Positions 41,647 through 47,952 of a stretch of 64,000 nt of DNA are shown piece by piece (positions within the stretch are counted from its first letter, which is position 1; each line of letters begins with the position of its first letter). The stretch covers positions 434,001-498,000 of the forward strand of contig NC_012804.1 of NCBI RefSeq assembly GCF_000022365.1. The letters are read 5' to 3'. The stretch is from Thermococcus gammatolerans EJ3 (GTDB taxonomy: Archaea; Methanobacteriota_B; Thermococci; Thermococcales; Thermococcaceae). The notes under the pieces are model-generated. The model was not told where the DNA came from and ran no database searches. It saw only the letters and a list, made by a program, of their open reading frames with translations. The position numbers were made by a program, and so were the translations under genes.

Positions 41647-41724
41647 GGGCCGGTGGCCTAGCCTGGATGGGGCGTCGGCCTTCGGAGCCGAAGGTCGCGG
41701 GTTCAAATCCCGCCCGGCCCGCCA
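41647..41724 (+). tRNA. tRNA-Arg (anticodon TCG)
   Basis: Acceptor GGGCCGG/CCGGCCC; anticodon arm TCGGC-CTTCGGA-GCCGA with anticodon TCG; T arm GCGGG-TTCAAAT-CCCGC; discriminator G and encoded CCA (41722-41724). A TATA-like CTTTATTTT (41614-41622) lies about 25-30 bases upstream. No intron. Confidence 0.95.
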
Positions 41725-42384: not shown

Positions 42385-42460
42385 AGCCCCGTGGTGTAGC
42401 GGCCAAGCATGCGGGACTCTGGATCCCGCGACCGGGGTTCGAATCCCCGCGGGGCTACCA
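42385..42460 (+). tRNA. tRNA-Gln (anticodon CTG)
   Basis: Acceptor AGCCCCG/CGGGGCT; anticodon arm CGGGA-CTCTGGA-TCCCG with anticodon CTG; T arm CGGGG-TTCGAAT-CCCCG; discriminator A and encoded CCA (42458-42460). No intron. Confidence 0.95.
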
Positions 42461-42869: not shown

Positions 42870-43091
42870 ATGAACGAAAATTTGAAGTTAGAGTGCGAGA
42901 TCAGGAACCTCCTGAGATTGAAGGGACCGTTAAGCGTCGCTTTTATTACAAGGTTCTTGAACGAGATGGGGTTTGAGTGCACCCGACAGAAGGTTGAAAG
43001 GGTTCTCAGAGATCTCGTCTCAAGGGGGGTTGTTGAGGCATCACTTCGTTATAACAGACGGAAGCATTACCAGCTGAGGCGGGAGGAATGA
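42870..43091 (+). CDS. Small winged-helix DNA-binding protein
   Basis: A 73-residue winged-helix domain: LECEIRNLLRLKGPLSVAFI (helices 1-2), FLNEMGFECTRQKVERVLRDLVSRGVV (recognition helix), then the wing ASLRYNRRKHYQLR. GGGAGGT precedes ATG 42870. The stop overlaps the next gene by four bases (ATGA), so the two form one unit. The position at the head of the DUF1102/signal-peptidase locus suggests it regulates that locus. Confidence 0.75.
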   Translation: MNENLKLECEIRNLLRLKGPLSVAFITRFLNEMGFECTRQKVERVLRDLVSRGVVEASLRYNRRKHYQLRREE

Positions 43092-43582
43092 TGGCTTCAT
43101 CAGCTTCCTCGAGCGTTATCCTTGGTAACAAGAGACGCATGCTTATGATAGAGTTTCTCCAAATGAAGAATGGACGGGCTGAGCTTAGGGACATAGTCGA
43201 GTACATAGCGGAGAAAGAGGGTAACACGGACAGGAAGCACAGAAAGAGTGTTTATGTCAGTTTGATGCAGACTCACATCCCAAAGCTTGAGAGGGAGGGG
43301 GTAGTTGCCTTTGAGCGTGGGGTCATAACACTCCTCCAGGTCCCCGATAACGTTACCCTCTATATGGAGGTCGTCCAGAGGAACGATATAAGCTGGAGCA
43401 CTTTTTATGCTGGCTTATCGGTGATATTCCTCGTTACCGCGCTGTGGTTTGGAAATCTCCTCCTGGTTTTTGCATCCCTTACTTATTTGATCGTGGCGAT
43501 CTTCCAGCGCATGAAGATGTACCGGATCCTTCAGCCTCGGGACTCAAAAAAAGGAAGAAACACCCGTAGAAATGGGAGGTAA
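43088..43582 (+). CDS. Membrane-anchored winged-helix regulator
   Basis: A 164-residue protein with an N-terminal winged-helix part (NKRRMLMIEFLQMKNGRAELRD to YVSLMQTHIPKLEREGVVAFE) and a C-terminal pair of membrane helices (TFYAGLSVIFLVTALWF and LLLVFASLTYLIVAIF). It resembles the HTH-plus-membrane proteins (DUF7344-like) common in archaea; the family call is tentative. A DNA-binding domain tied to the membrane could pass an envelope signal to the secreted-protein operon downstream. ATG 43088 or 43091. Confidence 0.68.
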   Translation: MMASSASSSVILGNKRRMLMIEFLQMKNGRAELRDIVEYIAEKEGNTDRKHRKSVYVSLMQTHIPKLEREGVVAFERGVITLLQVPDNVTLYMEVVQRNDISWSTFYAGLSVIFLVTALWFGNLLLVFASLTYLIVAIFQRMKMYRILQPRDSKKGRNTRRNGR

Positions 43583-43611
43583 TGCCCCGTTACCCCCTGG
43601 TAACTTCCAAC

Positions 43612-43791
43612 TTCATATATATCGAAACGGGCAACTGTTCTTTGGGTGCGACCGTATGGTTGCCCCGATCTGGGGCATCCGTGGTGGCAGTTTGATTTCA
43701 GTGTTGAGTGTTGTGGAAGGGCTGCGGATCCGCATGGATCCCACACTCGCAGAAGGGCCTGTTCCACGGTGCCTCGTATGGAGGCGAAAAA
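43612..43791 (+). promoter_or_regulatory. Promoter and long structured leader of the DUF1102 operon
   Basis: TATATAT (43616-43622) is the likely TATA, placing the start near 43645 and a leader of nearly 150 bases, long for this group of archaea. The leader can fold: TGCCCC/GGGGCA around a 5-base loop (43661-43677), the palindrome TGCGGATCCGCA (43723-43734), and GTGGAA/TTCCAC (43713-43718 with 43762-43767) enclosing it. The ribosome site GGAGG (43780-43784) follows. Confidence 0.5.
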
Positions 43792-44388
43792 ATGAGAAAG
43801 AATATTGCCCTTGGAATTTTTGGCCTGATAGTGGCCTTTGGTCTTGTTCTGGGAGCGGGGGCTAACTTCAGGGACTACAAAGCGACGAGGAGCGTCCACT
43901 GGGACATCGTTACCGACGACAGCGAGCTAATAGACCTGACCCCTCTCCAGCCCTACGCATACATTGACAACGAGACTGGAGTTCTAGTTGTGGACATAAG
44001 CCCGGACAACCCGAACTATCCGGGTTACGGAATGGGTCTCAGTCCGAACTCGGAGTACAACTTCGATGAGGTCTTTGAGGTAAGCAACGACCTTTGGGAA
44101 GAAAACATGACCATAGTCGTTAGGATAACTAGTGACAACGATGAAATACAGCTTTACGGTGCAGATGGGGACATCCACGATGTCACCACCGGGGACGTAG
44201 TTGAGTACTCAGACACTGCCGTTAACTCGGTTTGCTTTGTCGTTGAGTCCGGAGACGCCGTTAAGGTTGGTATGGACTTTGACGCCGGGAACCACGCGCC
44301 CGGCACCAGCCAGAACGCCACACTTCACATAGAGGCCTGGAGACTCGGAACCGAGCCCAGCAGCCTTGTTGGGAAGTGCGGTCAGTGA
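43792..44388 (+). CDS. DUF1102 secreted protein, paralogue 1
   Basis: A 198-residue secreted protein. Signal peptide MRKNIALGIFGLIVAFGLVLGAGA, likely cut before NFRDYKATRS. The mature part is a beta-rich acidic domain (SVHWDIVTDDSELIDL, then a C-terminal strand HIEAWRLG) as in DUF1102. The layout, a long hydrophobic leader, a motif NFRxYxAxR at the new N-terminus and a dedicated signal peptidase downstream, recalls TasA/camelysin-type fibre proteins; that link is inference. The upstream in-frame extension from 43708 is rejected because GGAGG fits ATG 43792. Confidence 0.8.
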   Translation: MRKNIALGIFGLIVAFGLVLGAGANFRDYKATRSVHWDIVTDDSELIDLTPLQPYAYIDNETGVLVVDISPDNPNYPGYGMGLSPNSEYNFDEVFEVSNDLWEENMTIVVRITSDNDEIQLYGADGDIHDVTTGDVVEYSDTAVNSVCFVVESGDAVKVGMDFDAGNHAPGTSQNATLHIEAWRLGTEPSSLVGKCGQ

Positions 44389-44401
44389 GGGGGAATGAGA
44401 G

Positions 44402-44938
44402 ATGAACAAGCTATTTGGATTGGCACTGCTTATGATTGGAATGGTTCTGGCTGTTGGAGCCGGGGCAAACTTCAGGTACTACTCCGCAGACAGGCACGCG
44501 AGCTTTGATATCGTTTCCGATGACAACGAGCTCATAGACCTAACTGCGATGCAACCCTACGTCAAGTACAGCAACGGCAAGCTCTACGTGGACATCAGTG
44601 ATGGCAACAGCAACAGGCCCAGCGGCGGAGGCGCCGGCCTGAGCCCGAATACCACCTATGTCTTCGAGGAGATGTTCAAGGTAAGCAACGAACTTTGGGA
44701 GAACAACGAGACTGACTTCCCGATCTGTGTCAAGGTAAACACCAACCACGAGCAGGTTAAGGTGTTCGCGGGAAACTACACCAGCCCAATAGCTGGACCC
44801 GCCAGCAACATCCAGTTCACGGTCTATCACGGTAACCCCGTTAAGGTTGGTATGATATTCGACACAACGAACTCAACCCTTGGGCAAGAGGACTTTACCA
44901 TGACCATAACCGCCCACAGGGGTACATGTGAACCGTGA
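44402..44938 (+). CDS. DUF1102 secreted protein, paralogue 2
   Basis: A 178-residue paralogue of the preceding gene. Signal peptide MNKLFGLALLMIGMVLAVGAGA, then NFRYYSADRHASFDIVSDDN and the same middle phrase (FEEMFKVSNELWENN against FDEVFEVSNDLWEEN). Several N-x-S/T sites suggest glycosylation. It lies 13 bases after paralogue 1. Two copies in tandem fit a major/minor subunit pair of an extracellular fibre. Two hairpins after its stop separate it from the peptidase gene. Confidence 0.8.
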   Translation: MNKLFGLALLMIGMVLAVGAGANFRYYSADRHASFDIVSDDNELIDLTAMQPYVKYSNGKLYVDISDGNSNRPSGGGAGLSPNTTYVFEEMFKVSNELWENNETDFPICVKVNTNHEQVKVFAGNYTSPIAGPASNIQFTVYHGNPVKVGMIFDTTNSTLGQEDFTMTITAHRGTCEP

Positions 44939-44975
44939 TTTCTTTTTCGGGGCTTTGCCCCACCCCTTTTAGGGG
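44939..44975 (+). terminator. T-run and two hairpins between fibre-like genes and peptidase gene
   Basis: After the stop come a T-rich stretch (TTTCTTTTT, 44939-44947) and two tandem hairpins: GGGGC-TTT-GCCCC (44949-44961) and CCCC-TTTTA-GGGG (44963-44975, allowing the A). Archaeal polymerase terminates at T-runs, so this may end part of the transcripts or protect the upstream mRNA, giving much subunit and little peptidase. Confidence 0.5.
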
Positions 44976-44985
44976 AGTGAAAAAA

Positions 44986-46044
44986 ATGAAAAGACTAATT
45001 GAGTACACGTTCACTTTCATCGTCCTCGTGTTTCTCATGGGTTCATTAGCTGGCTTCTTCCTGGACAGGCCCGTTTTCGTGTCCTACGCCTACTCCGACA
45101 GCATGACGCCCACGATAAACAAAGGAGACCTGTTCTTTGTTAATCCCTTCGCCAGGAACTTTGACGTTGGTGACATCATAGTCTTTCACAGGGGGAGTGG
45201 CTGGACGGTTCACAGGATCTTTGGGGTCACCAATGATGGCTACATCACCAAGGGGGACCACAACGTGGCCACTGACCAGCAGGATGGTAAGTTTCCGGAC
45301 GTGAAGAGATCGGACATAACTGGTAAGGTAGTGACCCTCTTTGGAAAACCTCTGGTAATCAGGGGGGCGGGTGCGTTTCTCCAGTCTGTTAAGTTAAAGC
45401 TCACAAATCCCTACGCAATAGCCCTGTTGCTTGTTCTCGGGGCAGTTTTGACGTTTTCAGGAGGTTCAGGAAAGAGACATCGCCGCGTGAAGTACTATCG
45501 GATAAGCGTCCGGACAGTTTACGCGATAGGCTCAGTCCTCATAATCGCTGGTTTTCTCTTCGTCACCGTTGCGTCATGGGGGACGCTGGCCTTTACATAT
45601 TCCTCGACGCTCGCAGGAGGCCAGAGGACGGGCTGGTACCTTCCGGGCTCAACCTTTGAGAAAAATCTCACCGTTGAAAACAGGGCGGTTTACCCCTTCT
45701 ACTATTTCGTGGAGGGGAAGAGCACGAGAGCCCAGCTCCTTGATTCCAGCTTCCTTTACCTCAAGGGTGGCTCTAAGAAAAACATTACCGTCCACGTCAC
45801 CGTTCCGAAGGACACGAGAATCTACCGGGAGGAGTTTCAGGTTCACTCCTACCCGGCCATTCTTCCCGCGTCGATTGTTGTGTCCCTTTACTCGATCAGT
45901 CCCTATCTCCCGCTCCTTGCCTACGCTCTGTTTCTGTCCACGCTCATGGTTTTCTTCTATCGCCTCGCGGGAATTTCTGACGGAGATGTGATCAGGATAC
46001 GGAAGCGAAGAGGGTTTCTCTCAAAAGTACTGGGGGATGGTTAG
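44986..46044 (+). CDS. Signal peptidase I with an extra C-terminal ectodomain
   Basis: A 352-residue protein. Residues 1-150 are an ER/archaeal-type signal peptidase I: anchor helix, catalytic Ser39 in YSDSMTPTI, the His that replaces Lys in TVHRIFG, and the Asp in KGDHN. After it come two membrane helices (about 138-156 and 177-200), a beta-sandwich outside the cell (TFEKNLTVENRAVYPFYYFVEG to FQVHSYPAILPA) and a last membrane helix near 315-335. Usual archaeal peptidases end after the first part. It probably matures the secreted proteins encoded on either side. ATG 44986 follows GGGGAG. Confidence 0.85.
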   Translation: MKRLIEYTFTFIVLVFLMGSLAGFFLDRPVFVSYAYSDSMTPTINKGDLFFVNPFARNFDVGDIIVFHRGSGWTVHRIFGVTNDGYITKGDHNVATDQQDGKFPDVKRSDITGKVVTLFGKPLVIRGAGAFLQSVKLKLTNPYAIALLLVLGAVLTFSGGSGKRHRRVKYYRISVRTVYAIGSVLIIAGFLFVTVASWGTLAFTYSSTLAGGQRTGWYLPGSTFEKNLTVENRAVYPFYYFVEGKSTRAQLLDSSFLYLKGGSKKNITVHVTVPKDTRIYREEFQVHSYPAILPASIVVSLYSISPYLPLLAYALFLSTLMVFFYRLAGISDGDVIRIRKRRGFLSKVLGDG

Positions 46045-46046
46045 TC

Positions 46047-46976
46047 ATGAGGAGGATTGTGATGTTCTTTGTAATGTTCCTCGGTCTGCTCCTGGTTGTG
46101 GGCTCGAGCGGAAACTTCAGGGAATATGGGGCCGACAGAATAGTGAAGATGGCCATCGTTGACGGCAACGATTCCTACGTCTCCTACTCCTGCAGCGGTA
46201 GTGTTATATATATGAATAAGAGTTCAAGTGTTCAGTTCACGGCTATGACACTGTCCAACTCGATGAACAAAACGATGTCCGTTAGGGTTGAAGGCGACTT
46301 TTCCAGTCTACCGGAGGGACTTTCGGGAAGTGTGAACGATTCATGGCACACCCTCGATGTGGGTGAGAGCGTTGTCATCGAAGGCAATTTCTCGGCTGAT
46401 GATAATGCCATCAGCGGAACCTACACCGTACCCCTAACGGTATACGCGGAATGGGACGGAGGGAGCGCCGAGCTAAAGGAATGCTCAATTACGGTTAGCC
46501 TGAACTCCCCGAAATACGTGCTCAGAAAGGGTATCGTTGGGGGTGTCTACAACTACACCTCCGGGGACTACACGATAGTCCTCCAGCTGAATTTCACGAA
46601 CAACGGGCCGAGCGGTGAGTTCATAATATGGGACAAGATTCCGTCTCATCTCTGCTCCCGTTGTTTAGGAACTTGCCATTGGGCAACGGCTAACGTGACT
46701 GTAGAGAGCACGAGTGCGACCGCAGGCACCGTTTTGAGACCACCTACGAACATCTCATGCGGCTGTCATAACATATTCAACTGTTGCGCTGGGGATCTCA
46801 TTGGATGGAGAGTTCATGTGTCCCACGGTGAAACCGTAACGCTTGAGATGACCCTCAACGTTTCCTTCAAGGTTCCATCGGGATGCGTAGCCAACTTCAC
46901 CTTAAACCGAGGAGCCCACCTCTGCGGAACCTGTCTCCGCTCAAATAAAATAAGCGTTACCGTTACAGGAGGTTGA
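46047..46976 (+). CDS. Cys-rich secreted protein with DUF1102-like N-terminus
   Basis: A 309-residue secreted protein. The signal peptide ends VVGSSG, followed by NFREYGADRIVKMAIV, matching the mature start of the two DUF1102 proteins. Two beta-sandwich-like parts follow; the second (TNNGPSGEFIIWDKIP) recalls DUF11-type surface repeats and holds about 11 cysteines (HLCSRCLGTC, SCGC, NCC, HLCGTC), many for a secreted archaeal protein. It could be a tip or cross-linking subunit. It starts 3 bases after the peptidase gene. Confidence 0.75.
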   Translation: MRRIVMFFVMFLGLLLVVGSSGNFREYGADRIVKMAIVDGNDSYVSYSCSGSVIYMNKSSSVQFTAMTLSNSMNKTMSVRVEGDFSSLPEGLSGSVNDSWHTLDVGESVVIEGNFSADDNAISGTYTVPLTVYAEWDGGSAELKECSITVSLNSPKYVLRKGIVGGVYNYTSGDYTIVLQLNFTNNGPSGEFIIWDKIPSHLCSRCLGTCHWATANVTVESTSATAGTVLRPPTNISCGCHNIFNCCAGDLIGWRVHVSHGETVTLEMTLNVSFKVPSGCVANFTLNRGAHLCGTCLRSNKISVTVTGG

Positions 46977-46980
46977 GAGA

Positions 46981-47952
46981 ATGAAGGATGTTAAGTTCGA
47001 TAAAAGATATCTGCTCCTTGCGGGGGTCTCCGTTTCGATAGTCCTCGCAGTTCTTTTTGGGGCCTATTCAAGCGCCGCCTATTCAAAGGCACCAATATCT
47101 ACGAGCGCCAAATATTCCACCTTATACACTGAAGAGGGTAGTTTCGTACACTTTGGGGTGTTTTCCAACAGTAGCATCTACAAAAGCGGCAGTACGCATG
47201 ATTACTACCCCTCCAAGATCACGATGTTGATAGGGGGGAACTACACCTTCCGGACTAACCCATCATCCCCCGGAACATACACGGCCACGATGCACCTCGA
47301 CTACTACGTCTCCAGCGGAAAAAAGAAGGTTTACATATACCGCGAGGAGATCCCGCTTGGGAGTGGATCCTTTGAAGGATCTTTCACTTTACCCTTGACA
47401 TTCAACATGAGCCTTTTGAGCGAGAAACTCAAGAGGGTCAGGGAAGGAACAGGGCTCTACCGGGCGGAGCAGGAGGTTTACGTCACGGTTGAGGTTAAGC
47501 CTGAGGGCAGGGATTCCTTCAGCCAGCGGATTGGGTTGAGCAAAGACTCGGCGAGCATGCTCTACCTAACAGGAACTGAAAAAGATTACAAAAAGGTCAC
47601 CAGGAGTGTGAGCACGACCACGAACTCACTCTCCTTCGCTGGTTCCGATGTTAGGGTTTCCACAGCCAGAACTCTCTTCCCGGCGATGGCCATCCTCTTT
47701 GCCGTACCTCCAATTGGGCTAATCTACTCCAGGAGGGAGAAGAAGACGGAGCCAAAGGCTCTTAAATCGCTTAAAAAATACACGGTTGAAGGAACTCCAC
47801 CCGGGGGGAAGCGCGTTAAACTGAAGTCCGCCGAGGATCTGGAACGTACCTTTGAGCTGGTGGACAGGCCGATAATTCATTACCGTGACGGCAATATCGA
47901 CGTCTACGCGATAGCAGATGGCGACACCGTTTATGAGTACTGGGCTTCTTAG
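46981..47952 (+). CDS. DUF5305 family membrane protein
   Basis: A 323-residue protein with an N-terminal membrane helix (LLLAGVSVSIVLAVLFGAY), an extracellular beta domain (about 40-225), a second helix (LFPAMAILFAVPPIGLIY) and a cytoplasmic tail with RPIIHYRDGNIDVYAIAD. This is the DUF5305 layout, often found with archaeal signal peptidase I genes. It may anchor or assemble the secreted proteins of the locus. GGAGGTT precedes the ATG; it is the last gene of the cluster. Confidence 0.8.
   Translation: MKDVKFDKRYLLLAGVSVSIVLAVLFGAYSSAAYSKAPISTSAKYSTLYTEEGSFVHFGVFSNSSIYKSGSTHDYYPSKITMLIGGNYTFRTNPSSPGTYTATMHLDYYVSSGKKKVYIYREEIPLGSGSFEGSFTLPLTFNMSLLSEKLKRVREGTGLYRAEQEVYVTVEVKPEGRDSFSQRIGLSKDSASMLYLTGTEKDYKKVTRSVSTTTNSLSFAGSDVRVSTARTLFPAMAILFAVPPIGLIYSRREKKTEPKALKSLKKYTVEGTPPGGKRVKLKSAEDLERTFELVDRPIIHYRDGNIDVYAIADGDTVYEYWAS

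Follow-up and report, generated by a model that had tools for sequence, protein, structure and literature searches.

A seven-gene locus of Thermococcus gammatolerans EJ3 and its probable role in a non-type-IV surface pilus

What is made by a set of genes that places secreted proteins of an unnamed family around their own signal peptidase? This is the question raised by a locus in a 64,000-nucleotide (nt) stretch of Thermococcus gammatolerans EJ3 (hereafter the window, whose numbering is used throughout). The locus has seven genes, all on the + strand, at 42870-47952, and two of them encode proteins of the family DUF1102. The answer reached with good confidence is that it is an operon for a surface pilus (fimbria) that is not of type IV and that corresponds, in Thermococcales, to the Taf/9P0A-type pili of haloarchaea. 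A pilus or fibre locus with its own signal peptidase had been proposed in an earlier sequence-only reading of the window, which had also described seven genes in one direction. That proposal is now supported by homology to, and the gene neighbourhood of, a solved haloarchaeal pilin and by the curated Taf families. The parts of the locus are as follows.

42870..43091, +, wHTH1: small winged-helix-like protein of 73 amino acids, candidate regulator; helix-turn-helix (HTH) matches below threshold only
43088..43582, +, wHTH2: DUF7344 winged-helix protein with a C-terminal hydrophobic segment (PF24035, 1.3e-17), candidate membrane-bound regulator
43583..43791, +, 209-nt gap that includes a TATATA box near 43616 and a long leader; the structural genes likely have their promoter here
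43792..44388, +, DUF1102a: 198 amino acids, signal peptide, mature start NFRDYKATR (PF06510, 3.4e-56), putative pilin-type subunit
44402..44938, +, DUF1102b: 178 amino acids, signal peptide, mature start NFRYYSADR at 44468 (PF06510, 2.4e-52), putative pilin-type subunit
44986..46044, +, signal peptidase I of the Ser39/His76/Asp91 type with a C-terminal extension (TIGR02228, 5.1e-17)
46047..46976, +, CysR: 309 amino acids with 12 cysteines (Cys) and 11 N-glycosylation sequons; NFREYGADR start after the signal peptide; candidate for a capping or tip/adhesive subunit
46981..47952, +, DUF5305 membrane protein: 323 amino acids (PF17231, 29.3 bits), candidate base or assembly partner

Homology to haloarchaeal pilins

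The DUF1102 profile matched a profile of 37 haloarchaeal pilin-like sequences with an hhalign probability of 97.3 (E-value 1.8e-11), and with 95.8 (7.7e-09) when the N-terminal motif was excluded by removing the first 12 columns. Column-shuffled, reversed and unrelated profiles, used as controls, all stayed below 1%. The haloarchaeal family profile matches PDB 9P0A, a 'Pilin' of Natrinema, at 4e-21, and a protein of Natrinema gari matches 9P0A with 100% identity. Haloarchaeal members pass the NCBI cut-offs both for TafA (200.6 vs 190) and for the 'TafE family fimbrial adapter protein' (166.4 vs 155). A smaller profile around 9P0A alone gave a weaker match to DUF1102 (67%, not significant without the motif), so the connection to 9P0A runs through intermediates. 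Direct sequence searches of the DUF1102 proteins against the PDB gave nothing credible.

Both DUF1102 proteins of the window lie well above the PF06510 gathering score (189.8 and 177.3 vs 22.2 bits). Their resemblance to the curated fimbrial families is weak; DUF1102a matches TafA at 1.1e-05 and TafE at 5.8e-04, and the window proteins reach only 25.5 of 190 and 19.6 of 155 bits. Being so far below the cut-offs they are not TafA or TafE proper. A six-frame search of the T. gammatolerans genome with the NCBIfam TafA model, which is too weak for a search of this kind, gave no match.

The gene neighbourhood agrees with the homology. A DUF7344 gene, a peptidase gene and a DUF5305 gene are all found near 9P0A relatives in 18 of the 24 loci, some of the others being cut by contig ends. 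These neighbourhoods were taken from genome contigs, since the 9P0A sequence had no match in plasmids; a search with P0007 found none there either. Full-length relatives of the Thermococcus peptidase do occur on haloarchaeal plasmids, where their neighbours include DUF1102-like genes, genes for small secreted proteins and DUF5305 genes, and in Halorubrum such relatives are near a DUF7344 protein and proteins that pass the TafA and TafE cut-offs. A trio of pilin-like, peptidase and DUF5305 genes is also found in another family of the same class (L097, L098 and L100; genomes G110, G111 and G112). The pilin of that trio starts with GAYSSVFVERE or GAYTTLSIERD.

The likeness to the Taf (TafA NF052520, TafC NF052521, TafE NF052522) and 9P0A systems thus comprises subunits homologous over their full length, a common mature start A/N-F-x-x-x-x-A-x-R, and three partners: the DUF7344 regulator, the signal peptidase with C-terminal extension and DUF5305. 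The systems differ in that TafA leaders look Tat-type (twin arginine) whereas the Thermococcus leaders look Sec-type, and in that Thermococcus adds CysR and carries DUF1102 in two copies, a number that rises to three in many relatives.

The same homology bears on whether the secreted proteins form a sheath, an S-layer accessory or a soluble matrix coat, with no strand-exchanged pilus. Several N-glycosylation sequons are present in the DUF1102 proteins in addition to those of CysR, as is common in archaeal coat proteins; moreover, polymerisation is a step that we infer, and the Foldseek similarity to pilins is weak. Such a coat is nevertheless improbable, given full-length homology to a family that includes curated fimbrial proteins and a pilin of solved structure and whose genes have the same neighbours, and given that Pfam and NCBIfam scans of the window proteins found no S-layer or coat family.

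Signal peptidase, mature start and predicted fold

The peptidase encoded amid the secreted proteins passes the archaeal signal peptidase I model TIGR02228 (62.2 vs 51.85 bits), and S39, H76 and D91, its catalytic residues, show no variation among 19 relatives. Its C-terminal extension consists of a membrane segment, an extracellular beta-rich region and a second membrane segment. Because two other signal peptidases are encoded elsewhere in the same genome, the one in the locus is an extra enzyme and can reasonably be called dedicated, as had been proposed.

The three secreted proteins had been said to share an unusual mature start, and all three have it. Every first or second DUF1102 copy of the 21 loci compared (42 of 42) has the pattern A-[NTSH]F[RSA]xYx.xR, which is not chance, and CysR bears a near-identical motif in nearly all loci. 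A third DUF1102 copy, not found in the window, lies directly before the peptidase gene in 12 of the 21 loci (L033, L039-L041 and L044-L051); all 12 of these copies lack both the motif and a cleavage signature. The leader of the third copy may stay uncut, which would make it a membrane-tethered base subunit that only accepts a strand.

Signal peptidases usually read less far than mature position 9. As the motif spans the predicted cleavage site, part of its conservation may reflect recognition by the peptidase and not a donor strand. In the strict form of this explanation the motif is merely a recognition tag for the locus peptidase with no role in assembly, and its absence from third copies, whose leaders may stay uncut, would fit. 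The explanation is unlikely, considering that conservation reaches as far as the R of mature position 9 and that the motif is common to 9P0A-type pilins.

The AlphaFold2 model of mature DUF1102b is a beta-sandwich (predicted local distance difference test, pLDDT, 81.8) in which residues 1-8 are disordered, as would be expected of a monomer modelled with no partner; this is no proof of strand exchange. Foldseek placed self-complemented forms of FimA first among PDB matches (E-value 1.3e-3 and up), with AbpA, the bundling pilin of Pyrobaculum (7UEG), at rank 6 (E-value 4.6e-3, probability 0.99, TM-score 0.44). The fold check on DUF1102 thus gave a predicted beta-sandwich with donor-strand pilins as its nearest PDB matches. 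Polymerisation of DUF1102 subunits by donor strands is likely because the predicted sandwich has a disordered N-terminus and matches FimA and a bundling pilin.

In the proposed mechanism DUF1102a and DUF1102b would be secreted beta-sandwich pilins. The locus peptidase would cut just before N-F-R-x-Y and free the N-terminal strand, which would then insert into a neighbouring subunit (donor-strand complementation) to give a thin, stable filament. CysR, whose DUF1102-like domain bears this N-terminal strand too and is followed by an immunoglobulin (Ig)-like domain, probably caps or tips the filament, and DUF5305 probably forms a membrane assembly site or base together with the extracellular part of the peptidase extension.

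The role suggested for CysR draws on its variability. Proteins at this position have 123 to 481 amino acids and 4 to 16 Cys, a much wider spread than in the proteins encoded next to them, and a tip or adhesive component fits this pattern. The description of CysR as a Cys-rich subunit is therefore true of the window and does not hold as a general trait. No family was matched in Pfam or NCBIfam scans of CysR. Its first domain is related to DUF1102 (hhalign probability 95.1), mostly through the N-terminal motif, the score being 28.6 once the motif is removed. The AlphaFold2 model has two tandem beta domains and a disordered N-terminus (pLDDT 84.3), and the fold search returned generic Ig-domain proteins only.

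A wider proposal, offered tentatively and with the odds against it, is that of a minimal pilus machine found across archaea. The peptidase would be its assembly platform, with the extracellular beta region passing newly cut subunits on to the growing fibre, DUF5305 its base and the third DUF1102 copy, where present, an acceptor-only base.

Several points weigh against the pilus interpretation. The evidence here consists of genes, homology and predicted fold, from which we infer the filament itself. No Foldseek match reaches an E-value of 0.001, and the pilin matches have TM-scores of 0.33-0.47. 9P0A is not among the 50 Foldseek matches listed, in a library that may lack it, and the literature search found no paper on 9P0A, TafA or TafE. 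Nor was a sequence relation to TasA found (hhalign probability 0.3).

Comparison with other filament systems

The last point concerns the Bacillus tapA-sipW-tasA operon, in which an N-terminal strand is freed by cleavage (PMC9674648, PMC10151520) and whose logic the sequence-only reading had recognised in the locus. The parallel stands for the logic: each system has its own Ser-His signal peptidase encoded with its substrates, and beta-sandwich subunits. It does not extend to kinship in sequence. The locus is proposed to work like sipW-tasA yet cannot be filed as TasA, as no sequence relation was detected; in addition its peptidase has the added C-terminal region, and DUF5305 and DUF7344 have no counterpart in the three-gene Bacillus operon. 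A true TasA/camelysin system by descent, whether shared between the domains of life or acquired, would account for the leaders with an aromatic-containing start, for a Ser-His peptidase with a weak SipW match (1.7e-07) and for beta-sandwich subunits with a weak fold match to AbpA, which belongs to a pilus described as TasA-like (PMC9674648). Against descent stand the hhalign result, the lack of a camelysin Pfam match among the window proteins and the fact that no TapA-like gene was identified, and it is judged doubtful.

AbpA itself resembles the DUF1102 proteins as a secreted beta-rich pilin with a fold match to the DUF1102b model, but there is no sequence match between them and the fold match is weak. 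Self-complemented FimA gave the best fold matches; the locus differs from chaperone-usher systems in having neither a chaperone nor an usher gene and in belonging to another domain of life, which makes analogy the likely explanation. The threads of Sulfolobus (Saci_0406) are archaeal, processed by signal peptidase I, complemented by donor strands and glycosylated (PMC9715654), but neither a gene-cluster nor a sequence relation to them was seen.

Thermococcales make archaella, and a type IV pilus or archaellum-related locus could be considered for this reason. It was rejected on leader type and gene content and is extremely unlikely: the leader is followed by a beta-strand and not by a retained hydrophobic helix, and the gene set conserved in 21 loci includes no ATPase, TadC-like or prepilin peptidase gene.

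Conservation, loss and organisation of the locus

DUF1102 is present in 87 of 94 Thermococcales genomes and in 72 of the 74 of good quality. The order wHTH2, DUF1102a, DUF1102b, peptidase, CysR, DUF5305 is fixed in 21/21 loci from six genera, with variable flanks, and wHTH1 precedes wHTH2 in 15 of these loci. DUF1102 was never found away from a signal peptidase gene; the peptidase is on the contig of the nearest listed DUF1102 gene in 80/80 genomes (gap median 64.5 nt, maximum 606), and a DUF5305 gene follows within 1.7 kb in 82/83.

Two genomes, G025 and G040, lack both DUF1102 and the peptidase and retain the DUF5305 tail alone, fused to a fragment of CysR or wHTH2. The scars of loss (L101-L103) are a CysR-DUF5305 fusion in G025 and, in G040, a single open reading frame joining the end of wHTH2 to the DUF5305 tail; in G028 the entire cluster is broken, with pseudogenes throughout. 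This joint loss in three genomes indicates that the genes of the cluster are kept or lost together and that the cells can do without them.

Nearly every Thermococcales genome thus carries the locus, but the literature search turned up no paper that names DUF1102, and the T. gammatolerans genome paper has no mention of pili or signal peptidase. The pilus interpretation gives the entire DUF family and its partners a testable surface-filament function, and one gene set would connect the pili of hyperthermophiles and halophiles. What the two have in common at a minimum is a pilin, a signal peptidase carrying an extra domain and DUF5305, and this core points to a route to non-type-IV archaeal pili that needs no chaperone-usher machine.

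The remaining family assignments are of unequal strength. Of two winged-helix proteins, one membrane-bound, that had been said to open the set, wHTH2 is confirmed as a DUF7344 protein with a predicted C-terminal membrane segment; the family search of wHTH1 gave the sub-threshold matches listed above. The closing DUF5305 protein passes PF17231 barely (29.3 vs 29.0 bits), an assignment supported by its conserved position. Its predicted topology has two membrane segments, a part outside the cell and a C-terminal domain in the cytoplasm, and it is a candidate membrane anchor or base.

The genes had been described as separated by tiny gaps. In gene order the spacing is a 4-nt overlap, then 209, 13, 47, 2 and 4 nt, so the description applies to all junctions except that between the regulators and DUF1102a. 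A TATATA box lies 70-105 nt upstream of the DUF1102a start codon in most relatives. Given the box in the long gap and its counterparts in relatives, the five structural genes are probably transcribed separately from the regulator pair. Winged-helix control is a candidate role suggested by adjacency alone, the structural genes having their own promoter-like box.

The DUF1102a leader contains an imperfect palindrome (GGATCCGCATGGATCC core) at 43712-43745, possibly a regulator site or an RNA hairpin. Just upstream of the operon are a tRNA-Arg (41647-41724) and a tRNA-Gln (42385-42460) gene, in a stretch that includes lower-GC DNA; as the operon flanks vary among relatives, this may be an insertion point. 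Several Thermococcales genomes have second, distant DUF5305-like genes away from DUF1102 (e.g. G013:C1:1784472-1785428, G029:C1:19049-19696 and G001:C13:133152-133964), which perhaps belong to a second surface system.

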